This document shows positions 23,601-44,063 of a stretch of 64,000 nt of DNA, piece by piece. Under the pieces are notes generated by a model. It saw only the letters and a list, made by a program, of their open reading frames with translations, did not search any database and had not been told where the DNA came from. The translations under genes were made by a program, and so were the position numbers. This DNA is from Desulfovibrio sp. UCD-KL4C (lineage in GTDB: Bacteria; Desulfobacterota; Desulfovibrionia; Desulfovibrionales; Desulfovibrionaceae). The DNA lies in the NCBI RefSeq assembly GCF_006210265.1, contig NZ_VCNC01000001.1, forward strand, positions 196,843 to 260,842, in the 5' to 3' direction. Positions within the stretch are counted from its first letter, which is position 1; every line of letters begins with the position of its first letter.

Positions 23601-23644
23601 AAACTGTCCGCAAACTGTCCGCAAACTGTACGCAAAGTGTACGC
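23601..23644 (+). repeat. Four tandem 11-bp iterons next to the tRNA attachment site
   Basis: AAACTGTCCGC, AAACTGTCCGC, AAACTGTACGC and AAAGTGTACGC follow one another without gaps, and an inverted GTGCGTAC element comes right after. The period of about one helical turn and the location about 120 bp from the 23768 junction fit recombinase or excisionase arm-binding sites. The rest of 23412-24170 holds only this, the tRNA fragment, its terminator and the araC upstream region. Confidence 0.7.
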
Positions 23645-23767
23645 AAAAGTGCGTACAAAACTCGGTAGTTTTAGCTAGTTTTCGGCAGTTTTTTAAATCT
23701 CCTGAATTTAGATTATCCCGCATGAACCAAGCAAAGACAGGCATTCCCATCTCAAAAACAGATCCTT

Positions 23768-23785
23768 CGCCAGCCAATTCGTAAT
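23768..23785 (+). repeat. 18-bp direct repeat copy 1 at the island/tRNA junction
   Basis: CGCCAGCCAATTCGTAAT is identical to 38689-38706. The last eight bases belong to the tRNA-Thr anticodon loop/stem; the first ten do not. Confidence 0.8.
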
Positions 23786-23822
23786 CAGTAGGTCGTCAGT
23801 TCAACTCTGATCGTTGGCTCCA
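23778..23822 (+). tRNA. 3' half of a tRNA-Thr (CGU anticodon) gene, attachment-site remnant
   Basis: The sequence begins in the anticodon loop (TTCGTAA, anticodon CGT), followed by the 3' anticodon stem TCAGT and variable region AGGTC. The T-arm is GTCAG-TTCAACT-CTGAT and the acceptor strand CGTTGGC, with T and an encoded CCA at 23820-23822. The bases before the loop do not pair with TCAGT, and no D-arm or 5' acceptor strand exists, so the gene is a 3' fragment. This is what remains at the distal end when an element integrates into a tRNA gene. The intact tRNA should lie left of the window. Confidence 0.75.
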
Positions 23823-23832
23823 TAAAAATCAT

Positions 23833-23870
23833 AGCCTCACAGTGTGTTATCACGTTGTGAGGCTTTTGTA
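23833..23870 (+). terminator. Rho-independent terminator of the tRNA-Thr unit
   Basis: AGCCTCACA (23833-23841) pairs with TGTGAGGCT (23856-23864), followed by TTT. It lies 10 bp after the tRNA CCA end. Confidence 0.7.
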
Positions 23871-24097
23871 TGATTAATAAAAGAGTATGACTTCGTAAAA
23901 GTACGAGCGGATAAACTGCGGACACCTATTCTCTATTTTTTAGCATATACAGCGAAGCAAATTCCCACCACAAACGGCGATCTTACGAAGAAAATTTAAA
24001 CGTAATGTCATATTTAAAATGAGGAATTGTTTCTTGCTAGGTTGCGGAGAATGAGTCTGTGCAAAATTAATTTGAACATATTTCAAACTTACCTTCT

Positions 24098-24170: not shown

Positions 24171-25214
24171 ATGAATGGAAGTCTTTTCTCCACTTCGAAT
24201 AAGAATGCATGGAGCATGCGTGAAGCCTCTGCGAATAGTGCTGTCAGGGTATTTGACCCTATTTCATGGCTTAATTTAAGTTTTGAGTCAGAGCCTATAT
24301 GGCGCGAGATAGAGCTCAGGCCAGGGCTTCGGGTAAGCGCATTTGAGGGTACTCTTTCTAGCGATTTTTCATTCAGTTACCAAAAAAAGAATATTTTTCT
24401 TGATTTCGGATTTTTCCTTGAAGGCGCAATTGTAAATAATCTCTGTGAAACTCCTATAGGCCCTCGTAGAATTGAAAACTTTGCGGGATATGGAGGACTG
24501 GGATTTTTTCGGGAAATGGCTGGTATGGCTAAGCCTGTGACACAAGGCAAGGTGAGAAGCATACATCTTCACATTGTTCCTGAACTACTTCACGAATTGT
24601 TGGCTGAAGATATTCATGCAGTGCATGATGATTTAAGGGTTTTGTTGGAAAATCAGGGTGAGCATAATTTCTTTTTGCACCACACCATGGACCCTGTAGT
24701 CCAGGTTGCAGCGAATGAATTGTTTTATGGACTCGCTGGCGGGCATTGCAGCAGAATGTATCTGGAAGGAAAAGCTCTTGAACTTATAGGGCTTCAGGTT
24801 ATGAAACTGGAATCTAAGTCCGGTGTGAATAATACTGTTTTGACCCCGAAGGAAGTTGAGCAGCTTAAGGCTGTTCAGGAGTATCTTAAGGATAAGTTTG
24901 ACGCACCGCCGAGTATGGCTGAATTGTCAAAAACTCACATGATGAGTATCAGCAAAATTCAGTCAGGTTTTCAGGAATTATTTGGAGTTTCCGTATTTGG
25001 TTTTTTAAAGGAATACAAACTTCGGAAAGCAAGAATGTATTTTGAAAGCGGCGAGATGAATGTAAGTGAAGTCGGATGGGCTCTTGGCTATACTAATCTA
25101 AGTCATTTTAGTTCTGCATATAAAAAAAGATATGGCGTACTTCCTAAGCAGTTTTTAAATTCAGTACGAGAAAGGAAAGTAGCTGGTTTTAATTGTAGAA
25201 ATTTTAAAATTTGA
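24171..25214 (+). CDS. AraC-family transcriptional regulator (PchR-like)
   Basis: This 347-residue protein has a C-terminal double helix-turn-helix (about residues 235-335). It contains FLKEYKLRKARMYFESGEMNVSEVGWALGYTNLSHFSSAYKKRYGVLPKQFL, given here only as a region; the key signature is the NVSEVGWALGY to RYGVLPK stretch. The N-terminal half is a ligand-sensing region of the type in siderophore-linked PchR/YbtA regulators. It lies 256 bp upstream of a TonB-dependent receptor gene in the same orientation, and this pairing usually means the regulator activates the receptor in response to the transported ligand (inferred). A strong terminator follows at 25255. Confidence 0.82.
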   Translation: MNGSLFSTSNKNAWSMREASANSAVRVFDPISWLNLSFESEPIWREIELRPGLRVSAFEGTLSSDFSFSYQKKNIFLDFGFFLEGAIVNNLCETPIGPRRIENFAGYGGLGFFREMAGMAKPVTQGKVRSIHLHIVPELLHELLAEDIHAVHDDLRVLLENQGEHNFFLHHTMDPVVQVAANELFYGLAGGHCSRMYLEGKALELIGLQVMKLESKSGVNNTVLTPKEVEQLKAVQEYLKDKFDAPPSMAELSKTHMMSISKIQSGFQELFGVSVFGFLKEYKLRKARMYFESGEMNVSEVGWALGYTNLSHFSSAYKKRYGVLPKQFLNSVRERKVAGFNCRNFKI

Positions 25215-25254
25215 ATTTGTAGAATAACTTCTGAATATTATTATATTGTAAGAG

Positions 25255-25288
25255 GCGTATTACGTATTTAGCGTAATGCGCTTTTTTA
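25255..25288 (+). terminator. Rho-independent terminator after the AraC gene
   Basis: GCGTATTACG pairs with CGTAATGCGC (one G-T pair), 7-nt loop, followed by six Ts. The remainder of the gap to 25471 is AT-rich and holds the TonB-receptor promoter region; no specific box can be fixed. Confidence 0.8.
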
Positions 25289-25470
25289 TTTTTATTGTAT
25301 TTTTGTATTGTGTATTTGAATATCGGTTAAATATTGAATGTTAATGGGTAGAAAATATTTCTTAGACTTCATATTTTGCCTTCTTGTAAAATGATTATGG
25401 TGGTCAGTAACTTTGGCAGTCGTCATTTATCATAACATAAAGATTGGTAAAATAATTACATGGAGTCGAG

Positions 25471-27597
25471 ATGCATAAAATTATTGTTCTTTGTCGAATT
25501 TTGAATTTTTTATTAATTTTTGTCACCTTTTTGGGGGCAAACGCTTTTGCTCATAATTCTACAGAAGCAGCACATTATTTGCCTCTTGTGACGGTAAAAT
25601 CCCAGAAAAGGACTGAAAAAGTTCAGGAAGTTCCTGTCAGCGTGGTAGCTTTGGATGAAATTGCTATCAAAGATATGGACATCAAGAATACAGATGATCT
25701 GTCTTTCCATGTGCCGAATCTTGAATTCAATGACTTTGGTAGTCGCAGGCATGGTTTTATGTTTTTGCGTGGTGTGAAGAGCCTTCCTACCGGGGAACCT
25801 TCGATTGGCTATTATGTTGACGGGGTAAGTTATTCCAAGCCGTATATGTTTAATTTTCCTCTGTTTGACGTTGAGCAGATCGAAGTTCTTAGGGGGGCGC
25901 AGGGAACTTTGTACGGGCGTAACACCATCGGCGGGGTAATAAATGTTTATACTCAGCAGCCCGGAAATGAAGTGAGGAGTTCTTTTGGAGGGGAACTGGG
26001 TAATTTTCATAGCAAGGAGTTTCGGGCCAGTTGGAGCGGGCCAATTGTTGAAGATAAACTTTTTCTAGGCGTATATGGATTGGGGGCTTTCAAAGACGGT
26101 TATATGGAAAATGATATATCCACAGACGGTGATGACGGCCGTCATCAGGATGGCAAATCCGGGCGTGTGAAATTGCGCTATCTGCCTGCCGAAGATTTGG
26201 ATATGTCTTTTTCGTTTGATATCCAAAACCATGATGACGGTGCTTATGCCATGCGTAGGACTGAGCGTAATGCCATGGTGCAAGCCGGAAAATTGTCCGC
26301 AGACAAACCATACCATTACTCCCATGATTATGAGGGTAGTCAGAAGAACGATTGCTGGGGATTATCGCTTAATTCTGAATACAAGACTAAGTACGGGAAG
26401 CTATATTCCATTACTGGATATAGGTTTTTTGACAGTGATGAAAAACTGGATTCTGACTTCAGTCCTCTGGATCAAATGCGTAAAAACTATTTGCAGCAGG
26501 ATAAGGATTTTTCGCAGGAATTCAGATTTACCTCTTTGGAGGACGAGGAGGTCGTTAAGTGGCTTGCCGGAGCATATTTTTTTCTTCTGGAGTCGGATAC
26601 TGACATAACCAATCTTTATGGAACTTCCTCATCTTCTCCCGGGGAGAAACTTAGATTTAAAACAGACAAGAAGAATGTTGGCTCAGCTTTATTCGGCCAA
26701 GGTACTTATACTTTTGGTAAAAATTTTGATTTAACTATGGGACTGCGTTATGAATATGAATATGCAGGGGCGGGTTCCTCAAAGTTTCAGACTCCCGCAG
26801 GAAGTTCTGAAAAGTTGCTGGTGGATCGTGATGCTTCAAACAGTTTTTCCAAATTGTTGCCCAAAGTTTCCCTTGCATGGCATGTAACCAAGGACCGGAC
26901 TCTTTACGGAACAGTCTCCCGTGCTTCCCGAAGTGGAGGCTTCAACGATGCCTCGGCTCCAGCTGATCACCAATCTTATGACGAGGAAGACAGTTGGCTT
27001 TATGAGGTCGGACTTAAATCAAGTCTTTTTGATAACCGCCTAAATTTAAATCTCAGTGGATTTTACACTTCAATTGATGATGAGCAGCTTTCCCTGTTTC
27101 AGGCGGATAGCATGCAGTCATATACCGCCAATGCCGGAAGCTCTCATCGATTGGGCGTAGAGGTAGAATCAAAATTTATGGTTATGCCGGGGCTTAATTT
27201 CAGTGGATCTTTTACTTGGATGCAAGCTGAGTTTGATAAATATTCTCCATCTACGGGAGTTGATTACAAGGGGAACCGTGTTTTCGGTGTTCCAGATTAT
27301 ACTTATACTCTTGCCGCCGATTACCGCCGGAATTTAGCCGGAGAGTGGGGGGTGTTCAGCCGTATTGATCTGTTGGGAATTGGTTCTCGTTTTTTTGATG
27401 ATGGAAATACAGTTAAAGAAAATCCCTATGAGTTGGTGAATCTTAAAGTTGGGGTCGAAGGTAAACATCTTGATGTGTATCTCTGGTCTAAAAATATTTT
27501 GGACCGTCAATACGTAATGATGGAAAATACTGCAGCTGGGGTTGCCGAGGACGGTGCTCCAAGAACATTTGGTATATCCATTGACTACAGATTTTAA
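25471..27597 (+). CDS. TonB-dependent outer-membrane receptor
   Basis: The 708-residue protein has a signal peptide (hydrophobic residues 9-22, cleavage after ANAFA at about 27). A TonB-box-like segment LPLVTVKSQK is followed by the plug domain (VQEVPVSVVALDE, DGVSYSKP, IEVLRGAQGTLYGRNTIGGVINVYT). The C-terminal barrel ends in the typical aromatic terminus IDYRF. The length fits siderophore/cobalamin-type receptors; the many Tyr/Asp-rich loops do not reveal the ligand. Pairing with the AraC regulator suggests ligand-induced expression. No FecCD/FhuB-type inner-membrane importer is encoded nearby, so uptake across the inner membrane would use genes elsewhere. A terminator follows at 27604. Confidence 0.9.
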   Translation: MHKIIVLCRILNFLLIFVTFLGANAFAHNSTEAAHYLPLVTVKSQKRTEKVQEVPVSVVALDEIAIKDMDIKNTDDLSFHVPNLEFNDFGSRRHGFMFLRGVKSLPTGEPSIGYYVDGVSYSKPYMFNFPLFDVEQIEVLRGAQGTLYGRNTIGGVINVYTQQPGNEVRSSFGGELGNFHSKEFRASWSGPIVEDKLFLGVYGLGAFKDGYMENDISTDGDDGRHQDGKSGRVKLRYLPAEDLDMSFSFDIQNHDDGAYAMRRTERNAMVQAGKLSADKPYHYSHDYEGSQKNDCWGLSLNSEYKTKYGKLYSITGYRFFDSDEKLDSDFSPLDQMRKNYLQQDKDFSQEFRFTSLEDEEVVKWLAGAYFFLLESDTDITNLYGTSSSSPGEKLRFKTDKKNVGSALFGQGTYTFGKNFDLTMGLRYEYEYAGAGSSKFQTPAGSSEKLLVDRDASNSFSKLLPKVSLAWHVTKDRTLYGTVSRASRSGGFNDASAPADHQSYDEEDSWLYEVGLKSSLFDNRLNLNLSGFYTSIDDEQLSLFQADSMQSYTANAGSSHRLGVEVESKFMVMPGLNFSGSFTWMQAEFDKYSPSTGVDYKGNRVFGVPDYTYTLAADYRRNLAGEWGVFSRIDLLGIGSRFFDDGNTVKENPYELVNLKVGVEGKHLDVYLWSKNILDRQYVMMENTAAGVAEDGAPRTFGISIDYRF

Positions 27598-27603
27598 TTG
27601 CAG

Positions 27604-27636
27604 ATGCGCTCGCGAACAATTACGAGCGCATTTTTA
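27604..27636 (+). terminator. Rho-independent terminator after the TonB receptor gene
   Basis: ATGCGCTCG (27604-27612) pairs with CGAGCGCAT (27623-27631), followed by a T-rich tract. The rest of the 309-bp gap to 27907 carries a MarR-type operator at 27863. Confidence 0.8.
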
Positions 27637-27862
27637 TTTTCGATAAAAAGTAGGTTCTTCGGGAGCAGAATGTGGATCTCAAAGCCATAGGGAGGATATT
27701 TGTACTACATCTGCTATGGGCATTGAAGTTTCTTTAGGCTTGTTTTTATCTATTTTGATTTTGGGGCAAAAATTTTATGTCTAGGGGTAGTTCTATCCTA
27801 TCAGACGGGTATATGTGTACCAAAAGGTGTTCGGACCTACTGGATGATTTTTTTTGAGACAA

Positions 27863-27881
27863 TAGTTAAGCTGCTTAACTA
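27863..27881. promoter_or_regulatory. MarR operator candidate, site 1 (upstream of the MMPL exporter)
   Basis: TAGTTAAGCTGCTTAACTA is a perfect 9+1+9 palindrome ending 25 bp before the exporter ATG. Two close relatives occur at 32818 and 33398, beside the marR gene and the activase gene. Confidence 0.72.
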
Positions 27882-27906
27882 AAATTTAAAAACTGAGGAA
27901 AGATTA

Positions 27907-30594
27907 ATGAGCAAAATAAAACAGGCTATAATTGCTTTTGCCATAAAACGAAGCTGGATAACAATCATCATGCTTCTGATGTTGACGGTTTTTACAGGGG
28001 CATTTTTTCCTAAAGTGGTTATTGATACAGACCCGGAACATATGCTTCCTGCTAATGAACCTTCCCGTCTTTTCCATAATGAGGCCAAGGCTAAGTTTGC
28101 TTTGTCTGAAATTGTAGTGCTCGGGATTATGAACGAAGAGTCTCCCAACGGTGTTTTTACCCCTGAGACACTGGGACGAGTCTACGAACTTACTGAGTTC
28201 GCAAAGACTTTGAACTGGGCTAATCCGGATAATCCGTCAAAAAAAGACGGTGTTATCGAAGTAGATATGGTTGCACCATCTATGGTTGAACATATTAGTC
28301 AGGAAGGGGCGGGGACAATTTCTTTTGACTGGCTCATGCCTCGGCCTCCTCGAACTCAGGCTCAGGCCGATGTTGTGCGTGAGAAGATTTTTGCAAATCC
28401 TATGCTTGCTGGTCACATGGCATCAGAAGATGGCAAGGCTATCTGCATCTATCTTCCGTTGACTGATAAGAATCAGAGTTACAAAGTTTACACTGCTCTT
28501 CAGGGAAAAATCAAAGAATTAGGAGGCGGGGACGAATTTTATATTACCGGATTACCTGTGGCTCAGGACGCTATCGGTATTGAAATGTTTACGGAAATGA
28601 CCCTTGCATCTCCTCTTGCGATGGGAACCATTTTCTTATTGCTCTATTTCTTTTTCAGAAAGCTCTCGCTGACTTTTCTGCCTATGATAATTGCTACTTT
28701 GTCAGTAGTTATAACTATGGGGTCAATGATTGGCCTTGGATATAAGGTCCACATCATGAGCTCTATGATTCCGGTTTTTCTAATGTCCATTGCGGTGGTG
28801 GATTCAATACATATTCTATCGGAATTTTTTGATTTGTACTCGCCGGAGCGAGGTAGAAAACAAACTATTCTTGAGACATTGAATACTTTGTTTATGCCTA
28901 TGCTTTACACTTCGCTAACTTCTGCTGCGGGATTTCTATCGCTCGCTCTCACCCCAATTCCTCCGGTTCAAGTTTTCGGTGTGTTTGTGGGATTGGGCAT
29001 CATGGTCGCCTGGCTTTTAACCATTATGTTTGTTCCTGCATATATAATGGTCTTGCCTGCTCGGGTTTTTGATAACTTCGGTGGCGCTATACATGGGCAC
29101 GAAAAAAGAACTTTTCTTGATCTTTTTTTGAAGAAAACAGGTGCGTTTTCATATCGCTACGCTAAGCCTCTGCTTGGCTTGGTTATGATTTTGTTGGTGT
29201 TATCTGCATGGGGAATCAGCAAGATTCAGATCAACGATAACCCTGTTAAATGGTTTGCTCCAAGTCACCCTATTCGTATGGCTGACACTGCACTGACCAA
29301 ACATTTTGGTGGAATTTATCCTGCATATCTTATCCTTGAAGGTGAAGAAATGAAGGTTCATTATTCCGAATCTGAGAAGCATAAGCTGGCTGAGAAGTTC
29401 ATGCTTTTTGCCGACACTCTTGCTGCGAAGTTTCCAAATGCTCCCCGATTGGCTGCATTGTTTGTAAGTGAATTGGACCACATGCCGGATTCAACTTCTG
29501 AAGGAAAATCTTTTCTTGAACGTGCGGCAGGTTTAGCTGGTCAAAAAGGTGAAAAGGCTAGTGATGAAGATTTTTATTTGTATGACGAGTTTGCTAGCTT
29601 TTTTAATCTTGAAAAAGAGCATCAAAAACCTTTCAAGCGACCTGAAATGCTAAAATATATTGCTAAGTTACAAAGGAAAATAGAAGCGGCAGGATTGGTT
29701 GGTAAAAGCGTTGCCCCTACTGATCTGGTCAGCAAGATTAATCAGGAGCTGACTGACGGTAAGGATGCCAGTTATCGTGTTCCTGAAAAGCTTCAGGGAG
29801 TAGGTGAGTGTTACATGCAGTATCAGCAGAGTCACCGCCCTCATGACCTCTGGCATTATGTAACCCCTGATTACACCGGAGCTTGTATTGTCTTCCAGCT
29901 CTCCAGTGGTGATAACAAGGTGATGGAAGCTGTGGAAACTTTTGTAAATAGTTATTTTGAAAGCAATCCTCCTCCTTGCGCTGTTTCACATAACTGGGCA
30001 GGTCTTACTTATATCAACGTCGCGTGGCAGAGCCAGATGGTGGAAGGCATGTTGCGTTCATTTCTTGGTAGCTTTGTCATTATATTGATGATGACTGTTT
30101 TCCTGTTCAAATCATTAAAATGGGGTGCGCTATGCATGGTCCCACTGACAATGACAATTGCAATTATTTATGGATTTATCGGGCTTATCGGCAAGGATTA
30201 CGATATGCCTGTTGCCGTGCTCGGAGTTTTAACTTTAGGGATGTCCGTTGATTTTGCTATCCACTTTGTAGAGCGTTGCAGGACTCTTTATTCCGAAACA
30301 GGCTCTTGGAGTGAGACCTTGCCTAAACTCTACGGGGCTCCGGCAAGGGCCATCAGTCGCAACGTGCTGGTTATTGCAATCGGTTTTCTACCTATGCTTA
30401 TCTCTTCTCTTATTCCTTACCGCACAACAAGTATCTTGCTGTCTTCCATCATGATGCTTTCCGGCGTTCTGACTCTGGTAGCTATGCCGGCAATTATTAC
30501 TTTGGCTCCGGAATGGTTTTTTGCTGGAGATAAGGTGTCTATTTCTGAGGAAAAAGTACAGGCAACAACTGTTCCAGCAGAAGTTCATCGTTAA
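27907..30594 (+). CDS. MMPL/RND-family exporter (HpnN-like, lipid or hydrophobic-molecule transport)
   Basis: This 895-residue inner-membrane protein has two repeated halves. Each has one N-terminal transmembrane helix (about 15-38 and 420-440), a large periplasmic domain and a five-helix bundle. The bundles carry the RND proton-relay-type segments AVVDSIHILSEFFD (about residue 295) and GMSVDFAIHFVERC (about residue 780). The size matches MMPL proteins that move lipids to the outer membrane. It starts a block with a LolA-like periplasmic protein and an outer-membrane barrel, implying a trans-envelope route. The MarR-type palindrome 25 bp upstream suggests repression by the MarR protein encoded at 32845. 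Confidence 0.85.
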   Translation: MSKIKQAIIAFAIKRSWITIIMLLMLTVFTGAFFPKVVIDTDPEHMLPANEPSRLFHNEAKAKFALSEIVVLGIMNEESPNGVFTPETLGRVYELTEFAKTLNWANPDNPSKKDGVIEVDMVAPSMVEHISQEGAGTISFDWLMPRPPRTQAQADVVREKIFANPMLAGHMASEDGKAICIYLPLTDKNQSYKVYTALQGKIKELGGGDEFYITGLPVAQDAIGIEMFTEMTLASPLAMGTIFLLLYFFFRKLSLTFLPMIIATLSVVITMGSMIGLGYKVHIMSSMIPVFLMSIAVVDSIHILSEFFDLYSPERGRKQTILETLNTLFMPMLYTSLTSAAGFLSLALTPIPPVQVFGVFVGLGIMVAWLLTIMFVPAYIMVLPARVFDNFGGAIHGHEKRTFLDLFLKKTGAFSYRYAKPLLGLVMILLVLSAWGISKIQINDNPVKWFAPSHPIRMADTALTKHFGGIYPAYLILEGEEMKVHYSESEKHKLAEKFMLFADTLAAKFPNAPRLAALFVSELDHMPDSTSEGKSFLERAAGLAGQKGEKASDEDFYLYDEFASFFNLEKEHQKPFKRPEMLKYIAKLQRKIEAAGLVGKSVAPTDLVSKINQELTDGKDASYRVPEKLQGVGECYMQYQQSHRPHDLWHYVTPDYTGACIVFQLSSGDNKVMEAVETFVNSYFESNPPPCAVSHNWAGLTYINVAWQSQMVEGMLRSFLGSFVIILMMTVFLFKSLKWGALCMVPLTMTIAIIYGFIGLIGKDYDMPVAVLGVLTLGMSVDFAIHFVERCRTLYSETGSWSETLPKLYGAPARAISRNVLVIAIGFLPMLISSLIPYRTTSILLSSIMMLSGVLTLVAMPAIITLAPEWFFAGDKVSISEEKVQATTVPAEVHR

Positions 30595-30613
30595 TTAAAG
30601 GAAATATTGTCCA

Positions 30614-30645
30614 GGATTCCAAAGAGGCTCGCTTCTTTGGAATCC
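30614..30645 (+). terminator. Intercistronic hairpin between exporter and LolA-like genes
   Basis: GGATTCCAAAGA and TCTTTGGAATCC form a perfect 12-bp stem with an 8-nt loop. There is no T-run, so it may act as a partial terminator or mRNA-stabilising element rather than a full stop. Confidence 0.55.
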
Positions 30646-30686
30646 CTTTGAAAATGCGTCAAAACATTAAATAAATGAGGTTTAAA

Positions 30687-31517
30687 ATGAAATACATAAG
30701 ATTACTGGCTGCGGCATTTATGTTTGCAATGTTAATAGGTGCTTCCCCGGCTAAGGCTGAAGTTTCTGATGTTGGGGCTATAGTAAAACGTGCAAACCAT
30801 ATGGCCCTATATCAGGGCGAAACATGTAAGGGGAAGATTCATTTACAGATAACAGACAGTCAAGGACGCACTAGGGTTAGAGACTTGAATATCCTGCGTA
30901 AGGATGCTGATAGAGATGACGGGAAACAGATGTACATGTCTTATTTTAAGGCTCCTGCGGATGTTCGTAAAATGGTCTTTTTGGTTCATAAAGTTACCCA
31001 GCCGGGAAAAGATGACTCGCGCTGGTTATATATGCCCAGCCTCGATATGGTGAAAAGAATTGCTGCTGGGGATAAGAGAACCAGTTTTGCCGGGTCTGAT
31101 TTTCTTTACGAGGATATTTCAGGACGTAGCCTATATGAAGATGTACATGAATTGATCGGGACTAAAGATGGTTGTTACATACTGAAGAATACTCCAAAAA
31201 ATCCTGGAGATGTGGAATTTTCTTACTATATTGCTTACGTAGATAAGAATTCATTTATTCCCATGAAAACGGAATATTTTAAAAGTTCAAATACCCCTTA
31301 TCGTACAATGGAAGTGGTTAAGGTTGAAAAAATTATCGCTGACAAAGGCGGAGAGATGATTTCATATCCAACGGTGACATGCTCTAAGGTTAGAAATAAT
31401 GAGACTGGAAGTGAAACCGTTATGACTTTTTCCAATATCACTTACAACCTTTCGGTCGAAGAAAGTGTTTTTGGTGAAAGATATCTGCGCAGACCTCCGA
31501 GAGAATTGATGCGATGA
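30687..31517 (+). CDS. Outer-membrane lipoprotein-sorting-type periplasmic protein (LolA-like)
   Basis: The protein has 276 residues. A signal peptide (YIRLLAAAFMFAMLIGAS, cleavage near PAKA) is followed by a domain of the MMPL-associated LolA-like family: KGKIHLQITDSQGRTRVRDL, DSRWLYMPSLDMVKRIAAGDKR, GSDFLYEDISGR. This incomplete-barrel fold binds acyl chains or lipids. The start at 30687 was taken because GAGGT lies 5 nt upstream; the ATG four codons earlier contains that site. The stop overlaps the next ATG by 4 bp. It is a likely periplasmic carrier between the MMPL pump and the barrel protein. Confidence 0.83.
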   Translation: MKYIRLLAAAFMFAMLIGASPAKAEVSDVGAIVKRANHMALYQGETCKGKIHLQITDSQGRTRVRDLNILRKDADRDDGKQMYMSYFKAPADVRKMVFLVHKVTQPGKDDSRWLYMPSLDMVKRIAAGDKRTSFAGSDFLYEDISGRSLYEDVHELIGTKDGCYILKNTPKNPGDVEFSYYIAYVDKNSFIPMKTEYFKSSNTPYRTMEVVKVEKIIADKGGEMISYPTVTCSKVRNNETGSETVMTFSNITYNLSVEESVFGERYLRRPPRELMR

Positions 31518-32806
31518 GGTTTAAGAATATAAAAATCATAGCCGTGTGGCTTGGGCTGCTTGCAGCCCTTGCCTCTCCGGCAGCAGCACAGGAAGAGAGC
31601 TTTTTGGAACTTCCGGCATTTTTTGATCAATTCGCTCCTGTAGAATTCAACGGATTTATTGAGGCAAGAGTTGGAGCACGGACCCAGAATGATCCGGATG
31701 AAAAAGAGTTTTCAATGGCTGAAGTCAGAATGCAGGGAGAGTTGTTTACTTATACTGACTGGGCAGATTTCAAATATAAAGGAGATGTCCGTACGGATGC
31801 TATAAGCAACAGAATCGCTTATGAAACCCGTGAACTGTGGATGTTTTCTAGGCCTTCCGATTTTATGGATATGAAAATAGGGCGGCAGGTCCTTACCTGG
31901 GGAACAGGAGGGCTGGTGTTTCTGAATGACCTTTTCCCCAAAGACTGGCGTTCATTTTTTATGGGCCGAGACGTAGAATATCTGAAGGCTCCTTGCAATG
32001 CCGCTAAGGTTAGTTTTTTTACCGAAGTTGCGAGCATTGATATGGTTTACAGTCCGCAGTTTGAACCTGATCGCTATATAGATGGTGAATATATTTCTTA
32101 CTGGAGTGGACTTGAAGACCGTCTTGTAGGGCGGGATAATATTCTTAGAACAGATATTCCTGATGAATGGTTTAAGGATGATGAGGTCTCAGCCCGTATT
32201 TACCGTAATATTAATAATTACGAACTAGCCATGTATGGATACTGGGGGTACTGGAAACAACCTGCCGGAATGAATTCTAGTGATGAGGCTACTTTCCCTC
32301 CCCTTAATGTTTACGGGGCTAGTATTAGGGGACAGGTCGGCTCAGGGATCGGTAATATTGAGGTTGCATGGTACGATTCTACTGATAGCCGAGGCGGGAC
32401 CAATGCAGAGGTGGATAACTCCCAGATACGGTATCTGGTGGGCTATGCGCATGAGCTTTGGCCCGACAGCAATTGTGAAGTGCAGTACTATGTTGAGCAA
32501 ATGCTGGACTACGGTAATTATCAAGATGTGCAGAAGCCTAAACATCCCAAAGATGAATTTAGGCATGTCATAACCGTGCAGTTTACTCAGCAGATGTTGA
32601 ATCAAAACCTGACTCTGGTACTGGATTCATTTTATTCTCCCAGCGATGAGGATGCATATCTGCGACCAAGCGTTCAGTACAAAGTATCGGACCAGACAAC
32701 TGTTGGGGTCGGGGCCAATTTCTTTATTGGTGCAACTGAGCAGACTTTTTTCGGTCAGTTCTCTAACGACTCAAGCATTTATACTTCGCTTCGTTACAGT
32801 TTTTAA
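31514..32806 (+). CDS. Outer-membrane beta-barrel protein of the MMPL export block (DUF1302-like)
   Basis: The 430-residue protein has a signal peptide (KIIAVWLGLLAALASPAAA, cleavage before QEESF). A beta-strand-rich body follows, with alternating hydrophobic segments (NGFIEARVGART, FKYKGDVRTDA, MDMKIGRQVLTWGTG), ending in the barrel terminus SLRYSF. MMPL exporters are often encoded with a LolA-like protein and a DUF1302/porin-like barrel, and the ATGA overlap with the preceding gene supports a shared complex or pathway. It would form the outer-membrane end of the export route or its acceptor. The cargo is unknown. Confidence 0.72.
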   Translation: MRFKNIKIIAVWLGLLAALASPAAAQEESFLELPAFFDQFAPVEFNGFIEARVGARTQNDPDEKEFSMAEVRMQGELFTYTDWADFKYKGDVRTDAISNRIAYETRELWMFSRPSDFMDMKIGRQVLTWGTGGLVFLNDLFPKDWRSFFMGRDVEYLKAPCNAAKVSFFTEVASIDMVYSPQFEPDRYIDGEYISYWSGLEDRLVGRDNILRTDIPDEWFKDDEVSARIYRNINNYELAMYGYWGYWKQPAGMNSSDEATFPPLNVYGASIRGQVGSGIGNIEVAWYDSTDSRGGTNAEVDNSQIRYLVGYAHELWPDSNCEVQYYVEQMLDYGNYQDVQKPKHPKDEFRHVITVQFTQQMLNQNLTLVLDSFYSPSDEDAYLRPSVQYKVSDQTTVGVGANFFIGATEQTFFGQFSNDSSIYTSLRYSF

Positions 32807-32817
32807 CTTGACTATTT

Positions 32818-32836
32818 TAGTTAAGCTGCTTTACCT
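32818..32836. promoter_or_regulatory. MarR operator candidate, site 2 (upstream of marR)
   Basis: TAGTTAAGCTGCTTTACCT keeps the left arm of site 1 exactly, with three changes on the right. It ends 9 bp before the marR ATG, so bound protein would block its own translation/transcription start region. Confidence 0.65.
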
Positions 32837-32844
32837 TTAAAAGT

Positions 32845-33327
32845 ATGAATAGCAAAGAAGAGACAATCAAATACATGACAGGAAGACTCATGCGGATAAT
32901 CAACAAGCATTTGCGCATTGAAGCACAGCCTATTCCCATAAGTGAAGACGTTGAGCTGCCAGCGGGTGAAGTTCATTGTTTGCAGGCGATAGGATTAAAT
33001 GAGGGAGCTAACCTTAAATCAATTGCCACGGTCATGGGGGTCTCCAAAAGTGCTGTTTCCCAGATGGTGAGCAAGCTTGAAAAGAAAGGTCTTGTCCGTA
33101 AGGATCGCGCTTTGGATAACAACAAAGAACTTCTTGCTTCTCTAACCGGAGCCGGTTGGGAGGCTTTTAACATTCATCAGGAATTTCATGAGAGACACAT
33201 GCACAATCTGCTGGGGCGGCTGGATGAATTTTCTGATCCGCAGATTGCTTCTGCGTCAGCCATTCTTGCTATTGTGGAGACTGTGGTTGATGAACGTGTG
33301 ACTGAAATTTTTAACAGATCCAAGTAA
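32845..33327 (+). CDS. MarR-family transcriptional regulator
   Basis: This 160-residue protein has the winged-helix core AGEVHCLQAIGLNEGANLKSIA, the recognition-helix region GVSKSAVSQMVSKLEKKGLVRK (about residues 65-87), the wing DRALDNNKELLASLTGAG, and dimerisation helices at both ends. It lies between the export genes and the activase gene. Matching palindromes occur upstream of the exporter, its own gene and the activase, so it is probably an autoregulated local repressor. A clear Shine-Dalgarno site is missing before the ATG; the palindrome arm fills that position. The ligand is unknown; a lipid or aromatic acyl compound would suit the neighbours (speculative). Confidence 0.85.
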   Translation: MNSKEETIKYMTGRLMRIINKHLRIEAQPIPISEDVELPAGEVHCLQAIGLNEGANLKSIATVMGVSKSAVSQMVSKLEKKGLVRKDRALDNNKELLASLTGAGWEAFNIHQEFHERHMHNLLGRLDEFSDPQIASASAILAIVETVVDERVTEIFNRSK

Positions 33328-33397
33328 AAGTTTTTTCGGAAAAATATAAATTATCAATGGGCATCGTGACAGTAGTTGTCCTTTTTATTTGAAAATA

Positions 33398-33416
33398 CAG
33401 TTAAGTTGCTTAACTA
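33398..33416. promoter_or_regulatory. MarR operator candidate, site 3 (upstream of the activase gene)
   Basis: CAGTTAAGTTGCTTAACTA differs from site 1 at two positions. It ends 24 bp before the activase ATG, the same spacing as site 1 to the exporter ATG. Confidence 0.7.
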
Positions 33417-33440
33417 AAAGAAAAGCTTAAGGAGAAATAT

Positions 33441-36400
33441 ATGATCAGTTTAGGCATAGACATCGGTTATTCCTCTGTAAAAATAGTGGTTTTTGATGAG
33501 CAATTACATATAACTGACAGTAGGTATGTTTTGCATAAAGGTCATCCAAGGGTTACTCTTTTGCGTATTCTCGAAGAATTACGCCCGATGCTGGAGACGG
33601 AAGAATTATGCGGAGCAGTTGTCGGAAGCGGTGGGAATTTCCTGACTTCTTTGGATGTATGCCATCCCGTTAATGATATAGCTGCTGCCATGGAAGGTAG
33701 TATGCTTTTGGCTCCAGATTGCGCCTCCGTAATTGAGATAGGTGGGCAGCGAGCAGGGTTTATTACAGGTTTTTCTGAGAAAAAGAAAACCGGGATTGAA
33801 TTTTCTTTGAATCCTGACTGCTCGGCCGGAACCGGTTCGTTTCTTGAAGAACAAGTTTCGCGAATAGGGGTTGATATTGAGAGTTATTCCCAAATTGAAA
33901 GTAAGGCCTTATCAATTCCTAGAATTGCCGGACGGTGCAGTGTTTTCGCTAAAACAGATATCACTCATCATCAACAGGAAGGAGTGGGTATTCCGGATAT
34001 TTTGCGTGGCCTGGCATATGCCACTGCCAGAAACTACAGGAATGCCGTTATGCGTGGATTGCCTTTGCGTACTCCTGTTTTCTTTGCTGGAGGAGTTTCA
34101 CAGAACAAGGCGATTTTCAAAGCTTTGTTAAAAGTTCTTGTTCTGGATGAAGAACAGTTTTTTGCTCATAAATTGAGCCGAGTTTCTACTGCATGCGGTG
34201 CCGCTGTTATTGCTCTTAAAGATGGTATGAAGATTGATTTTGAACGCTTGATGGATGCCATCATCAATCCTTTAAGTGAATCCGCTTCTGAGGACACTAA
34301 GACGACCTTACCTGCTTTGTATGGGGTTGGGCATAATGATGCTGAAAACAAACATTTTTTTAGAGGGATCAATCCCAACACAGATCTTGAGAAATGCTGG
34401 ATAGGTGTAGATGTCGGGTCTACCAGCACCAATGTTGTTCTTATTGATTCGGAAAACAGGGTGATGGGATTCCGATATCTTAGGACTGCCGGAGATCCTG
34501 TTGAAGCAGTTAAAAAAGGACTTAGCGAACTGGGGCATGATCTTGGATCGCATGTAAAGGTTGCGGGCGTGGGAGTAACTGGCTCAGGCCGATATATGAC
34601 TGGTCGTCTCATCGGCGCCGATGTAGTCAAAGATGAGATCACCTCACAGGCAAGGGCTGCGGTTAGTCTTTATCCAGATGTTGATACTGTTTTTGAAATT
34701 GGAGGGCAGGATTCAAAGTTTATTTCCATAAAAAATGGTGTGGTTTTTGATTTTCAAATGAATAAGGTTTGCGCAGCTGGAACAGGATCATTTATTGAAG
34801 AACAGGCAAAGAAAATCGGTCTTGAGCTTGATGATTACGCTGCAACAGCTTTTAAAAGCGAGGCTCCTATTAATCTTGGAGAGCGCTGCACAGTGTTTAT
34901 GGAAACCAGTATTGCATCCCATCTTGCCATGGGGGATTCCATTGAGGATATTGCGGCGGGACTCTGCTATTCTATAGTTAAAAATTATACCAATCGTGTA
35001 GTGGGTAGGAAAAAGATAGGGAGCAAAGTTCTTCTCCAAGGCGGAGTTGCCTACAATCAGGCCATTGTGAATGCTTTTCGTTTAGTGACAGGAAAAGAAA
35101 TAGTTGTTCCTCCTTTCTTCAGTGTGACCGGAGCACTTGGGGTAGCAATTCTTGCGCGGGAGGAAATGCAGTCTGGTATATCTTCGTTCAAAGGTTTTTT
35201 GCTGGAAGATGAACCTGCTGTCAGAGCGGAGCCTGCTCATAATAAATTTGCTTCCGGTTCATTTAACAGGGATGTGCAGGAATTTATTTTTCGTGATTAT
35301 GACGGAACAGTAGAGCCTTCAAAAAAAACTGTAGGCATGCCGCGTGCTCTTTTTACCTACGGCATGTATCCAATGTTTTATCCATTTTTTAAAGCCTTGG
35401 GAGTAAATGTAGTCCTTTCTGAACCTACGTCCGGAGAAACGATCAGGCTGGCTCAGGAATATTCGCTGGATGAGACTTGTTATCCTGTCAAATTGATTAA
35501 CGGTCATGCTGCGGAGCTGGTTGAGCGTAAGGTTGATTATCTTTTTTTCCCAAATCTTTATACTGCCTCCCATCCGAGCTCCAAATCTCGTCAAAATTAC
35601 GGCTGCCCGTACATGCAACTGGCGTTTAAGATCATTAATGAGGCTATGGATCTTGAAGCGAGAAATATCAAACTTTTGGCTCCTACTATCGCTTTCAATC
35701 AGGGCGCTGAGTTCATGAATAAAATGTTTATGGCTCTAGGCTCTCAAATAGGTAAAAGCTCGGCAGAAACTGCTGAGGCTCTCAGTTTGGGGATGAAGTC
35801 ATACAATGAGTTTAAGAATCGCATGGAGGAAAGAGGTAAAGATACATTAAAATCCCTTGATCCCAATGCCAAGAGTTTTGTGCTCATCTCCAAGATTTAT
35901 GGGGTTGCCGATCCGGTATTGAATATGGGTATTCCTGATAAATTGGCTGAAATGGGGTATAGGACTATTCCTCTTTATGACCTGCCTGAGTCTGATATTT
36001 TTATGGAGCACCCTAATATGTTCTGGCCGTTTGGTCAGCATATGCTTGCTGCAGCAAAATTGGTTGCAAAGCATCCTAATCTTTATCCCATATTTCTTAC
36101 TCACCATGGTTGCGGTCCTGATACTGTTTTTTCCCATTATTATTCTGAAATATTGAAGGACAAATCTTCGCTTACTATTGAAGTTGATGAACACTCCTCA
36201 AGCGTCGGCGTGCTTACAAGGGTTGAAGCTTTTGTAAATAGCCTGAGCCGTATCCCTTTACAGCCTGCTCTCTCCATTGATGATTATATAAAAATGTCTC
36301 CTGCAGAACCAGTTAATATCATAACACAATATACAGAACTTAGTTCACGCTCAGTTTATTTGCCGAATATCTATCCATATTCATCTATAGCTTGTGCTGC

Positions 36401-37430
36401 TTTGAAATCAAGAGGGATAGACGCACATGTTCTTGCTTCTACTTCCAGTAAATCACTTGACCTAGGGCGAAAATATTCTTCAGGAAATGAGTATTTTTCT
36501 TTCACCGCACTACTCGGTGATGTCCTTACAACTTTACCCGGGTGCGGAAAAGAGAAGGGTAGAACATTTGCTTTATTTATTCCCCAAAATGAAGGGGCTG
36601 AAGTGGACGGGCAATACAGTCGCTTATTGCGTAGTATTCTTGATCAGGAAGGACTTGATGAAGTGGAAATCATATCTCCGTATCTTGAAGATTTGAAATT
36701 TCGTGATGAGCAGAGTGTTAATTTATTTTTTCTGTGCCTCCTTGCAGGAGATCTTGTTTTGCATACTCCTAAAGAGTTGAGAGCAGAGGCTTTGGAATTT
36801 GTGCTTAATTTAATCAAATTTAATGAACTAAGCATTGAAAAACTGGAAATTGTAGCAAATACAGTACTTAATAATCTTGTTAAACTTGAAAATAACCAGA
36901 CAATTTTGGCTATTGGTGAGCCAATGATTCTCTTTAATGAAGTATTAAACGATTGTTCTTTCAGTCGTCTGGAAAAAAGTGGCGTAAGAGTTATCTATGC
37001 TCCTCTAAGTGAATATCTGTGGAACTATTGGTACGATTACTACACCTTTAATAAGGTGGAAGCTCCTCCCTCAATGCGCAGGAATATAGCTGTATTTCAA
37101 GAATATATGGAAAGGATTTCCGGTAAGCTTGGGAAGTACAGTCATTATGAAAAGATTTTCGGTTCGCTTAAAAAAACAGCAAATATGGGGCTTGGCTATT
37201 ATTCTGGAGCTTTTGGAAGGTATCGCGGTGCTAAGATTGTAGAAGAAATGTCAGGAGTTAAAGGGGTTATATCAGTGAGCTCCATGTATGAGAATACTGG
37301 GATCAGTCTGGGAATTCTTAAGGATAGAATGAAAGAAACTCCTCCTGCTCCGGTTCTGTCACTCACTTTTGATGGGAATATGAACGAAAATAACAGAATT
37401 AAGGTTGATTCATTTATTTACAATGTCTAA
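33441..37430 (+). CDS. Large BcrA/BcrD-type CoA-enzyme activase with two ASKHA domains and DUF2229 region
   Basis: The 1329-residue protein holds two BadF/BadG/BcrA/BcrD ATPase domains. The first (residues about 1-265) has GIDIGYSSVKIVVFD, CSAGTGSFLEEQ and AGRCSVFAKTD. The second (about 315-580) has GVDVGSTSTNVVLID, GVTGSGRYMTGRL, EIGGQDSKFISI, CAAGTGSFIEEQ and GERCTVFMETS. The paired Cys residues of CAAGTGSF and ERCTVFM are the usual [4Fe-4S] ligands bridging an activase dimer, so one chain may mimic a dimer. A DUF2229-type region (MPRALFTYGMYPMFYPFF, DETCYPVKLINGH) and a 2-hydroxyacyl-CoA-dehydratase-like C-terminus follow. It would use ATP to deliver low-potential electrons; the substrate is unknown. 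A MarR site precedes it. Confidence 0.85.
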   Translation: MISLGIDIGYSSVKIVVFDEQLHITDSRYVLHKGHPRVTLLRILEELRPMLETEELCGAVVGSGGNFLTSLDVCHPVNDIAAAMEGSMLLAPDCASVIEIGGQRAGFITGFSEKKKTGIEFSLNPDCSAGTGSFLEEQVSRIGVDIESYSQIESKALSIPRIAGRCSVFAKTDITHHQQEGVGIPDILRGLAYATARNYRNAVMRGLPLRTPVFFAGGVSQNKAIFKALLKVLVLDEEQFFAHKLSRVSTACGAAVIALKDGMKIDFERLMDAIINPLSESASEDTKTTLPALYGVGHNDAENKHFFRGINPNTDLEKCWIGVDVGSTSTNVVLIDSENRVMGFRYLRTAGDPVEAVKKGLSELGHDLGSHVKVAGVGVTGSGRYMTGRLIGADVVKDEITSQARAAVSLYPDVDTVFEIGGQDSKFISIKNGVVFDFQMNKVCAAGTGSFIEEQAKKIGLELDDYAATAFKSEAPINLGERCTVFMETSIASHLAMGDSIEDIAAGLCYSIVKNYTNRVVGRKKIGSKVLLQGGVAYNQAIVNAFRLVTGKEIVVPPFFSVTGALGVAILAREEMQSGISSFKGFLLEDEPAVRAEPAHNKFASGSFNRDVQEFIFRDYDGTVEPSKKTVGMPRALFTYGMYPMFYPFFKALGVNVVLSEPTSGETIRLAQEYSLDETCYPVKLINGHAAELVERKVDYLFFPNLYTASHPSSKSRQNYGCPYMQLAFKIINEAMDLEARNIKLLAPTIAFNQGAEFMNKMFMALGSQIGKSSAETAEALSLGMKSYNEFKNRMEERGKDTLKSLDPNAKSFVLISKIYGVADPVLNMGIPDKLAEMGYRTIPLYDLPESDIFMEHPNMFWPFGQHMLAAAKLVAKHPNLYPIFLTHHGCGPDTVFSHYYSEILKDKSSLTIEVDEHSSSVGVLTRVEAFVNSLSRIPLQPALSIDDYIKMSPAEPVNIITQYTELSSRSVYLPNIYPYSSIACAALKSRGIDAHVLASTSSKSLDLGRKYSSGNEYFSFTALLGDVLTTLPGCGKEKGRTFALFIPQNEGAEVDGQYSRLLRSILDQEGLDEVEIISPYLEDLKFRDEQSVNLFFLCLLAGDLVLHTPKELRAEALEFVLNLIKFNELSIEKLEIVANTVLNNLVKLENNQTILAIGEPMILFNEVLNDCSFSRLEKSGVRVIYAPLSEYLWNYWYDYYTFNKVEAPPSMRRNIAVFQEYMERISGKLGKYSHYEKIFGSLKKTANMGLGYYSGAFGRYRGAKIVEEMSGVKGVISVSSMYENTGISLGILKDRMKETPPAPVLSLTFDGNMNENNRIKVDSFIYNV

Positions 37431-37445
37431 CTGTTGGAGAATTTG

Positions 37446-38060
37446 ATGCAAACGAATTACAAATCAGAAAATAATAGTAAATGCAGACATGGTGGGCACA
37501 AACGTGGCCCGACAAGTTATCAAATGCATGATTCTAACCTTGTTTTTGAGGTTTTGGGATTGAAAAACGGTGATGTGTTCTTTGATATGGGGTGCGGTCC
37601 CGGAGATTATTCGATTCATGCTGGCAAAGTTATTGGCATTGCTGGAACTGTTTATGCGCTGGATAGCAATATAAGTATGCTCAAAACAGTTGATAACAAG
37701 GCTGCTACGAATGGACTGAGTAATATTCAAACCGTTTACGGAGATATGACTGGTGTACTCCCTTTTGAAGATGAGAGCGTAGACACCTGCTTTATGAGTA
37801 CTTCTCTACATTGCATGGATTTGCAAAAGTGCGGAACAGCTATATTCAAGGAAGTTGAGCGTATACTGAAACTTTCAGGGCAGGTTGCTGTTCTTGAATG
37901 CAAAAAAGAGAGAGTCGATTTTGGCCCTCCATTGCATATGCGAATTTCAGCAGAGGACATCAAATCTGTTGTACAGCCTTTGGGGTTTTCTCAGTACGCA
38001 TATCTGGATCTTGGGTTTAATTATATGATCACGCTTAAAAAAAAGGGTATGGATGTTTAA
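37446..38060 (+). CDS. Class I SAM-dependent methyltransferase
   Basis: This 204-residue methyltransferase has motif I DMGCGPGDYSIHA, YALDSNISML for ribose binding, YGDMTGVLPFEDESVDTCFMS as motif II, and LKLSGQVAVLECKKE. It resembles UbiE/COQ5-type and small-molecule methyltransferases. The ATG at 37446 is preferred because GGAGA lies just upstream; a TTG at 37434 is possible. It follows the activase stop by 15 bp and touches the flavodoxin gene, so it is part of the same operon. The CRHGGHKRGP N-terminus has Cys/His residues of unknown use. The substrate is not recognisable. Confidence 0.78.
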   Translation: MQTNYKSENNSKCRHGGHKRGPTSYQMHDSNLVFEVLGLKNGDVFFDMGCGPGDYSIHAGKVIGIAGTVYALDSNISMLKTVDNKAATNGLSNIQTVYGDMTGVLPFEDESVDTCFMSTSLHCMDLQKCGTAIFKEVERILKLSGQVAVLECKKERVDFGPPLHMRISAEDIKSVVQPLGFSQYAYLDLGFNYMITLKKKGMDV

Positions 38061-38061
38061 A

Positions 38062-38625
38062 ATGAATATTCTCAATATGTACGCATCACTTAACGGGCAG
38101 ACCGAAAAGGTTGCTTTTGAAATTGAAAAAGTAGTAATTGAGGCTGGACATGCGGTTACAACTATTAATATTGAAAAGCAGGGTGATATTATTGATCTGC
38201 TTGAGTATGATTTAACCTTTATCGGATCCGGTGTTTATACATGGCTACCGGGCAAGGGGCTGCTGAAATGGATTGAAAAACAGATGGATTATGCTCGGAA
38301 AAATGATTTAATTCTTCCTGGATCACCCAAAATACCCGGAAAATTTGCCTGTGTATATTGTACTTATGCGGGGCCGCATACAGGTGAGGGAGAAGCGATT
38401 CCTGCAATTAAATATATGGGGCAGCTTTTCGAGCATTTAGGAATTACCGTTGCTGATGAATGGAGCATTGTCGGAGCGTTCGTTCCTGAAAAAATGCGTC
38501 ATTTTAATACCTGCGGTCGTCTTGGAAACATTGTTGGACGTCCAAATGCTGAAGATTTGAGACAGGTACGGGAAAAGACAAAAGGAGTAATTGATTCTTT
38601 GCAGCTTTCTATTCCTGTTAAATGA
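38062..38625 (+). CDS. Flavodoxin-domain protein
   Basis: The 187-residue protein opens with NILNMYASLNGQTEKVAFEIE, where the S-x-N-G-x-T-E loop binds the FMN phosphate. FIGSGVYTWLPG and VYCTYAGPHTGEGEA occupy the positions of the two isoalloxazine loops. It is longer than electron-transfer flavodoxins (about 145 aa) and closer to flavodoxin/NADPH-oxidoreductase-type proteins. Its place behind the iron-sulfur activase suggests it may supply electrons (inferred). The start could also be 38053, three codons earlier, overlapping the methyltransferase stop. A bidirectional terminator follows at 38809. Confidence 0.75.
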   Translation: MNILNMYASLNGQTEKVAFEIEKVVIEAGHAVTTINIEKQGDIIDLLEYDLTFIGSGVYTWLPGKGLLKWIEKQMDYARKNDLILPGSPKIPGKFACVYCTYAGPHTGEGEAIPAIKYMGQLFEHLGITVADEWSIVGAFVPEKMRHFNTCGRLGNIVGRPNAEDLRQVREKTKGVIDSLQLSIPVK

Positions 38626-38688
38626 TTTAGTGGGTAAGTCTTTTTTATCCTAGTTAAAATTGATTTTTGGGAAGATAATCCAATCTTC

Positions 38689-38706
38689 CGCCAGCCAATT
38701 CGTAAT
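38689..38706 (+). repeat. 18-bp direct repeat copy 2 of the tRNA-junction sequence
   Basis: CGCCAGCCAATTCGTAAT is identical to 23768-23785 but is followed by unrelated sequence, with no tRNA 3' half. A short inverted repeat (GGAAGAT/ATCTTCC, 38670-38689) abuts it. The rest of 38626-38899 holds only the terminator at 38809. Confidence 0.8.
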
Positions 38707-38808
38707 TGTCATTTGCTTCTCCTGTAAAAGTCAGGATAACGGCTTAATCTTGTGTTCATAATAAGGTTAATATCTTTTTCTATTTGGTCGATTGGAATTA
38801 GAATTTAG

Positions 38809-38840
38809 AAAAGCCCTTTGATTAAGCTCAAAGGGCTTTT
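38809..38840. terminator. Bidirectional rho-independent terminator
   Basis: AAAAGCCCTTTG and CAAAGGGCTTTT form a perfect 12-bp stem with an 8-nt loop and A/T runs on both sides. It sits between the convergent flavodoxin and aldolase genes and can serve both. Confidence 0.9.
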
Positions 38841-38899
38841 CTGTCTATGATGAATGCTTGGGAGGACCGGCCGTTATCTGGCGGTATACCCGCCGGGGA

Positions 38900-39652: not shown

Positions 39653-39676
39653 TCGAATTCCTTCTGCGGACAAGGG

Positions 39677-41026: not shown

Positions 41027-41184
41027 GTCTGCCTCCTTCGTGGCATTGTTGTCGACAGTCTGGGGATGCGTCCCGGCTCGCTATCGTTGTCGTCTCGCCT
41101 TTTTCATTCAGGTAGGTAAAGGGATACGCGAGGGGCATCCCCTTACCTACTTGGAGTGAAACCAACAAAGTCTCTGTGCTCAAG

Positions 41185-42843: not shown

Positions 42844-42980
42844 AAATTCTCTCTTGGTTGTATTGCTCGATCCTTTTTTTTGCGCTTCAGGCCAAAGGGC
42901 CAAAAAGGATTCGGACTAGTTTAAAAAGACAGAGTATTTCATGTTTTAAACGCATTTTTTTTTGCTCTAAAATCTTAGGC

Positions 42981-42992
42981 CTGAAATTTCAG
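42981..42992. promoter_or_regulatory. 12-bp palindrome in the dehydratase/gntR divergent promoter region
   Basis: CTGAAATTTCAG is a perfect palindrome about 90 bp from the gntR start and 138 bp from the dehydratase start. It is a candidate GntR operator, with no second copy seen to support it. Confidence 0.35.
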
Positions 42993-43081
42993 ATTATAAT
43001 AAAGGCAGTAAATGAATATTGTCAAGTGAGGGGGTATTTTTTTGGTTGTTATTTACCCTGTTCTTATTGTAGATACTGCAA

Positions 43082-43783: not shown

Positions 43784-44045
43784 GGCAACGCCGACCGTAG
43801 TAGGTGGGATACCTTTATCGCGCTTGGCTAAGATGGATGCCGCGCAAAAAGGCCAAAAGGAGAGTCTTGTTTTACCATTTGGCTACACTTTAGATTCTCC
43901 AGAAATATTCCTCATGTGGCATGTTTCGGGGGAACTCCGCTAGACAAACGGTTAAAGGCTGTGAGATTCTCTTTATTAAAAATTCCTCAAGCATAACAAA
44001 AATTTAATTTAAAAGTAAACTTCCAAAATTCATGTATTTCCACTT

Positions 44046-44063
44046 GGTATACAATTGTATACC
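44046..44063. promoter_or_regulatory. 18-bp perfect palindrome with paired GTATAC
   Basis: GGTATACAATTGTATACC is a perfect palindrome in the 360-bp gap between the convergent gntR and dus genes. It resembles GTATAC-centred FCD-GntR operators, but no gene start is adjacent. The rest of the gap shows no feature I can name. Confidence 0.45.

Follow-up and report, generated by a model that had tools for sequence, protein, structure and literature searches.

A displaced tRNA-Thr(CGT) 3′ half as a probable internal seam in a tandem array of genomic islands in Desulfovibrio sp. UCD-KL4C

The displaced tRNA-Thr(CGT) 3′ half and its terminator

The stretch of DNA analysed (the window; 64,000 nucleotides, C1:196843-260842 of a 3.93-Mb genome) contains the 3′ half of a tRNA-Thr(CGT) gene followed by a terminator and preceded by short tandem repeats:

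23601-23644, + strand: four 11-bp iterons in tandem, probably arm-type sites of class A (core TGTMCGCAAA); the same repeats occur in relatives
23650-23692, + strand: inverted arm unit TGCGTACA (23650-23657) and conserved block AAACTCGGTAGTTTTAGCTAGTTTTCGGCAGTTTT, from the alignment of 11 right ends
23767-23784, + strand: class A island end and crossover region, TCGCCAGCCA joined to ATTCGTAA; one mismatch to the class A pattern
23777-23822, + strand: displaced tRNA-Thr(CGT) 3′ half, 46 bp, from the last anticodon-stem base to CCA; 46/46 identical to C1:129872-129917
23833-23870, + strand: terminator T2, which accompanies the 3′ half and forms the left edge of island A2 (see below); the same terminator lies behind 3′ halves in relatives

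The 3′ half opens with ATTCGTAA, one base ahead of the 7-nt anticodon loop, and closes with CCA. The initial annotation had described a 3′ half with CCA and terminator, lacking a 5′ half and starting in the loop itself; apart from that single base, its description holds. ARAGORN calls no tRNA gene in the 64-kb window, hence the 5′ half is missing at 23777. The intact tRNA-Thr(CGT) that should be sought to the left is located at C1:129842-129917, at a distance of 90.7 kb from the 3′ half, which puts it 66.9 kb beyond the window start. Its bases 31-76 are identical to the 46-bp copy, and it shares with 23777-23822 the only full 46-bp copies within C1:108001-280000. The T2 hairpin is built of 14-bp arms (23833-23846 and 23851-23864) that are 86% complementary and are followed by a T run.

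Three classes of island ends and their integrases

Copies of the 3′ half were marked in 26 regions totalling 1.12 Mb, drawn from 16 genomes of the genus with the own genome included; there are 49 of them when intact tRNAs and one hand-added fossil are counted. The bases to the left of the core sort into three main sets, A, B and C, with a few degenerate ends unplaced; the class of degenerate ends was assigned by eye. Class A ends read CCGCCAGMCA followed by ATTCGTAA, with arms TGTMCGCAAA. Class B ends read AAATCTG followed by ATTCGTAA, with GGTACCAGTTT-like units twice at the left end and, in G006, also at the right end. Class C ends read CGGTAAAG followed by ATTCGTAA, with TTTGTCCCC twice at the left end. 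Left ends with a clear arm pair have it at 11-bp spacing, just behind the terminator.

The integrases of the three classes are mutually 24-28% identical where BLAST aligns them. The class C integrase adjoins all four right ends of its class (G003, G016, G004 and G014) and the class B integrase four of five (G013, G015, G006 and G008), none being found at the class B right end of G010. The class A integrase is represented by a single complete gene:

G003:C3:176045-177079: class A integrase, 344 aa, encoded at a left end next to a xis-like gene (HTH_17)

Among the 17 genomes it is full-length only there and present as a C-terminal remnant in one other (G008), all other matches being at most 33% identical; in the own genome none is found at E 1e-20. 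Class A islands are mostly devoid of an integrase. Their arms are found at left ends in G003, G008 and G014, and are kept by 7 of the 11 class A right ends examined in the genus, a count that omits the degenerate ends of uncertain class at G007:655434 and G010 C2, with G010 C2:509304 outside the arm examination.

Segmental duplication, or homologous recombination between repeats, might have spread the 3′ halves instead of site-specific integration, and the finding of several copies per genome, some of them far from the tRNA (G004 C1:375821, G003 C11, G008 C15), would fit such an origin. Duplication, however, would leave ragged breakpoints, whereas the well-preserved copies do not vary in their start position within the tRNA; they switch at one base, their flanks and arms are specific to each class, and in classes B and C the integrase adjoins the end. 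We regard this origin as extremely improbable.

The class A right end at the seam

Judged from its sequence, the seam at 23777 belongs to the class A right ends. Its 150-base block leading up to the core is 69-77% identical to those of eight of the ten other class A ends, and the cargo just beyond this block in those eight ends is 47-53% identical; a fossil end of the own genome (38688, see below) and the G008 end give 54-55%, which is background level. Two of the matching ends come from a MAG labelled Pseudodesulfovibrio sp. MC-06 and have a variant tRNA 3′ half, and a pattern scan of contigs returned three loci only, one of them that of G007.

Of the four iterons two are identical and the others are 91% and 82% alike. 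The class A repeats recur at island right ends in G013, G003, G001, G015 and G007, and also at the MC-06 loci, a recurrence that favours the reading of the iterons as recombinase arm sites advanced in the initial annotation. Its reading of a right-hand attachment site left by tRNA-targeted integration is supported as well. Four tandem 11-mers are similar in form to the iterons of plasmid-type replication origins, or could be regulator sites. Nevertheless, island ends whose cargo is unrelated have the same units about equally far from the core, and the left ends of class A islands in G003, G008 and G014 have them too, which makes a replicative or regulatory role very unlikely.

Over the 1.12 Mb, matches to the arm motifs lie within 350 bp of a 3′ half in 22 of 37 cases for class A, 14 of 15 for class B and 10 of 19 for class C, although this zone amounts to 3.04% of the sequence; 15 class A and 9 class C matches fall elsewhere. 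In 200 shuffles of one 10-mer per class, the near matches for A, B and C averaged 0.07, 0.02 and 0.21, with maxima of 5, 1 and 9, the higher maxima (5 and 9) probably stemming from shuffles that recreate or nearly recreate the motif. Since the motifs were picked after viewing these ends, the control measures concentration and is no independent test. Some of the distant class A matches are paired at 11 bp, for example G003 C3:224798/224809, and these pairs may be further remnants.

The interval between tRNA-Thr and the seam

From the tRNA to the seam the interval contains, in order, a Mu-like prophage, a relaxase/AbiE-like segment, a tyrosine integrase domain, an IS3 element and polysaccharide DNA, the last of which enters the window:

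1-23600, no strand assigned: cargo of island A1 inside the window, polysaccharide genes and a phosphoramidate-type operon (Pfam/NCBIfam, GC)

The MbeA-like relaxase scores 153 bits, under its NCBIfam cut-off of 500; the AbiE-like genes are named from their ORFs, NCBIfam giving no confirmation, and the IS3 family name was likewise taken from the ORFs. The integrase of the interval is of class B. It has 95.5% DNA identity to the integrase of G006 up to C1:181094, the edge of IS3, where the match stops; the G006 gene runs on into a right end (AAACTG followed by ATTCGTAATCAG) that is absent here. No target duplication was seen by eye around IS3. Taking into account that: (i) the left end of the interval, at the tRNA, is of class B, with GGTACCAGTTT arms; (ii) its right end is of class A, and (iii) its integrase is truncated at IS3, the 90.7-kb interval is composite.

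Island A1 extends over approximately C1:182358-220618, its left limit being set at the IS3 edge, with a GC content of 39.2%. Its Pfam/NCBIfam matches include PPDK_N/PEP-utilizers, Peptidase_C26, NTP transferase and APS_kinase. The best NCBIfam match of the Peptidase_C26 gene is gamma-glutamyl-CDP-amidate hydrolase (109 bits, under the cut-off of 250), and the PPDK_N/PEP-utilizer gene presumably resembles the Campylobacter glutamine kinase. The latter gene of the phosphoramidate-type operon is present in 6 of the 17 genomes, and in none of the five relatives does it share a contig with dus.

The initial annotation placed the island to the left of the seam. For the polysaccharide and phosphoramidate DNA this is correct, but the interval from the tRNA to the 3′ half is not one island. 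The integrase expected on that side was found as well, yet truncated and of class B, unlike the class A right end. A single 90.7-kb island, acquired in one integration and followed by chromosome on its right, would account for an interval that has an intact tRNA-Thr(CGT) at one end, a 46-bp 3′ half on the same strand at the other, and one integrase gene inside. Against it, the two ends belong to different att classes, and the only integrase present is incomplete and does not match the right end in class, and so does not fit both ends. The DNA on the other side of the seam bears on the same question.

Several minor features accompany the interval. The Mu-like prophage, recognised by the appearance of its ORFs, is about 35 kb long (C1:131959-167552) and separates the tRNA from the remainder of the class B element; a large ORF of this region contains a 33-bp tandem repeat of about 22 copies (C1:155299-156022). 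A 129-bp piece adjoining the AbiE-like genes (C1:178264-178391), also found in G006, is 86% identical to the class B integrase gene and reads as the trace of an earlier integrase copy. Another protein with an integrase domain, encoded at C1:123161-124207 and which we take to be TunR-like, was rejected as the island integrase: it is to the left of the tRNA, among apparent molybdate-type transport genes, and relatives have homologues of it next to the tRNA.

The DNA to the right of the seam

Chromosomal DNA to the right of the seam, as implied by the initial annotation, is not what is found there. The segment 23823-38697 is a second class A island, A2, and it is followed by a GC-rich segment before the chromosomal anchor:

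23897-23926, no strand assigned: weak left arm-like sequence of A2 (containing AAACTGCGGACAC), with no exact TGTMCGCAAA match
24171-38625, + strand: cargo of island A2 (Pfam), a syntenic block between two seams in G013
38688-38706, + strand: fossil class A right end CCGCCAGCCAATTCGTAAT, 0 mismatches to the 18-base class A pattern, its place agreeing with the G013 seam
38707-44079, no strand assigned: GC-rich (51.5%) segment with HpcH aldolase, GntP permease, IlvD/Edd dehydratase and GntR
44080-45232, − strand: chromosomal right anchor, the flank beginning with TTTCAGATATGTATAAA and the dus gene (44144-45232, Dus domain)

A2 encodes an AraC regulator, a TonB receptor, an MMPL transporter, a LolA-like protein, a MarR regulator, an acyl-CoA dehydratase activase protein (1329 aa), a methyltransferase and a flavodoxin, while 31514-32806 has no Pfam match. 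Within the interval, the AraC gene is found only here and in G013; its homologues elsewhere are 55-66% identical and at other places. In G013 the block from AraC to flavodoxin (76-81% mean tblastx identity per piece) is bounded on one side by a class B right end followed by 3′ half and T2 (C6:126695) and on the other by a class A right end (C6:118054). Its location between two seams there indicates that the DNA to the right of the seam described here is an island. At the equivalent seam of G013, a class B end replaces the polysaccharide DNA, the switch occurring at ATTCGTAA, after which the same 3′ half, T2 and AraC island follow. The occurrence of this 3′ half in a relative lacking the polysaccharide genes had been put forward as grounds for abandoning integration. 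It does occur, in G013, but since the 3′ half is there the left edge of the next island, it supports integration rather than refuting it.

At 38688 the evidence for the fossil end amounts to about 20 bases, the remainder of the 3′ half and the arms being gone. The GC-rich segment stands out from surroundings of 39-43% and from the prophage at 45%, and is possibly a third island with lost ends. From about 44080 the flank matches the sequence that in G014 directly follows the 3′ half and T2 and leads into dus; here the chromosome resumes. With A2 lying between two seams in G013 and the dus flank beginning only at about 44080, the single 90.7-kb island becomes quite unlikely.

Distribution in the genus

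Displaced 3′ halves occur in 14 of the 17 genomes of the genus and were not found in G002, G011 and G012 (in G012 the region was not fetched). G013, G003, G015 and G008 have three or four copies each. The dus gene is single-copy in 16 of the 17 genomes; in the 11 genomes that have it on one contig with the tRNA, it is always downstream of and convergent with the tRNA, at hand-computed distances of 9.2-127 kb. G007 is an exception in having its 3′ halves on the opposite side of dus. The comparison with relatives for an empty site, proposed in the initial annotation, yielded G013, in which A1 is missing from this seam; no truly empty site (tRNA, T2, dus) turned up in the 17 genomes. Outside the genus dus was found, not beside tRNA-Thr in the 22 loci scanned with ARAGORN, and no report of this hot spot was found in the papers searched. 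The class A segment of G001 (C1:522316-535804) has arms at both ends, none of the 17 PF00589 matches of G001 falls within it, and its cargo consists of formate dehydrogenase, [FeFe] hydrogenase, HydE and HydF.

Integration model and relation to known tandem islands

The displaced 3′ half would represent, with a probability of about 0.86, an internal seam within a series of islands arrayed in tandem at the anticodon loop of tRNA-Thr(CGT). We infer the mechanism of recombination, the order of events and the loss of mobility from the anatomy of the locus, its recurrence in relatives and the truncated integrase. In the model, each island would bring a tRNA 3′ half and a terminator at its own left end. 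Upon integration the incoming 3′ half would restore the tRNA, and the old 3′ half with its old terminator would be pushed to the right end of the island. At least three tyrosine-integrase classes (A, B and C) would share the core ATTCGTAA, the arm repeats, spaced at 11 bp, being particular to each class. The resulting order would be tRNA, class B mobilizable element with the Mu-like prophage, A1, A2, GC-rich segment and dus, the class B element having lost its right end and the N-terminus of its integrase beside IS3. Since A1 and A2 both lack an integrase of class A and the left site of A1 is lost, excision of the whole 90.7-kb interval as a single circle is not expected.

More than one island per tRNA, each with a gene-end repeat, is found in the own genome, which has two seams, the second a fossil, in addition to the tRNA. 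By analogy with Streptococcus and Dehalococcoides, the locus would be best read as cis-mobilizable islands that accreted in tandem. For Streptococcus, CIMEs and the accretion of ICEs and IMEs were reportedly treated by Pavlovic in 2004 and Bellanger in 2011. In the account of these elements, decayed elements keep their att sites and later ones enter the att site at the gene end (PMC5704250). The likeness to our locus is this accretion at a gene-end att site; the differences are that A1 is without a left site and that three classes share the target (PMC5704250). A1 has an intact right site, but its left site is gone beside IS3, and it therefore falls outside the definition of a CIME. A2 has the left 3′ half and T2, its right site being a core fossil without arms, and the G001 segment has both ends and no integrase, as a CIME should.

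The Dehalococcoides ssrA islands are described as standing in tandem downstream of one RNA gene, each with a direct repeat of its 3′ end, many of them (15) lacking an integration module and proposed to be cis-mobilizable, with niche-defining cargo (McMurdie 2011, PMC3146451). Tandem stacking, 3′-end repeats, integrase-less islands and niche-type cargo are shared with the array described here. As reported, however, the Dehalococcoides islands use a serine recombinase and the T-loop of tmRNA, whereas here at least three tyrosine integrase classes use the anticodon loop of tRNA-Thr (PMC3146451). In the Islander collection, as presented, the anticodon-centred crossover is the commonest class (2083/3919), and tandems are listed only when each island has an integrase (125 tandems of at least two islands, 4 of at least three; PMC4383910). 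Our locus has the intact tRNA and same-strand 3′ fragment typical of Islander islands, although A1 and A2 would fail its rule of an own integrase per island (PMC4383910). Tycheposons, as characterised in a secondary source, are alike in being tRNA-bounded and cargo-carrying and in using a tyrosine recombinase (via PMC10872708).

Tandem accretion itself is known; here it is repeated across a whole genus at tRNA-Thr, and one variable region of a bacterial genus is given exact edges. Stacked islands at a single tRNA gene can house entire traits, for example the modification of a surface sugar or a formate-hydrogen module. A single anticodon loop has become the common target of three distantly related integrases, which differ from one another in terminator and 11-bp arm repeats; this convergence opens target sharing between integrases to direct testing. 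More tentatively, and with considerable doubt, class A islands could be integrase-less cassettes with preserved arm sites and selectable traits (phosphoramidate polysaccharide, formate/hydrogen metabolism), moved in trans by rare carriers of the class A integrase, the region from tRNA-Thr to dus serving throughout the genus as a docking board for three integrase systems. This view draws on the arms kept at 7 of the 11 class A right ends, set against one intact class A integrase and one remnant among 17 genomes.

Pieces of such arrays are also found at a distance. In G004 a class A right end complete with its arms, 3′ half and T2 (C1:375821) is about 1.9 Mb from tRNA-Thr, beside tRNA-Arg(CCG); its remoteness indicates that arrays are broken up and carried elsewhere. 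Decayed tRNA-Thr 3′ halves with a T1-type terminator lie near tRNA-Lys(CTT), far from tRNA-Thr, in G000 (C2:625962) and G005 (C3:226000), and are perhaps a relocated piece of an old array.
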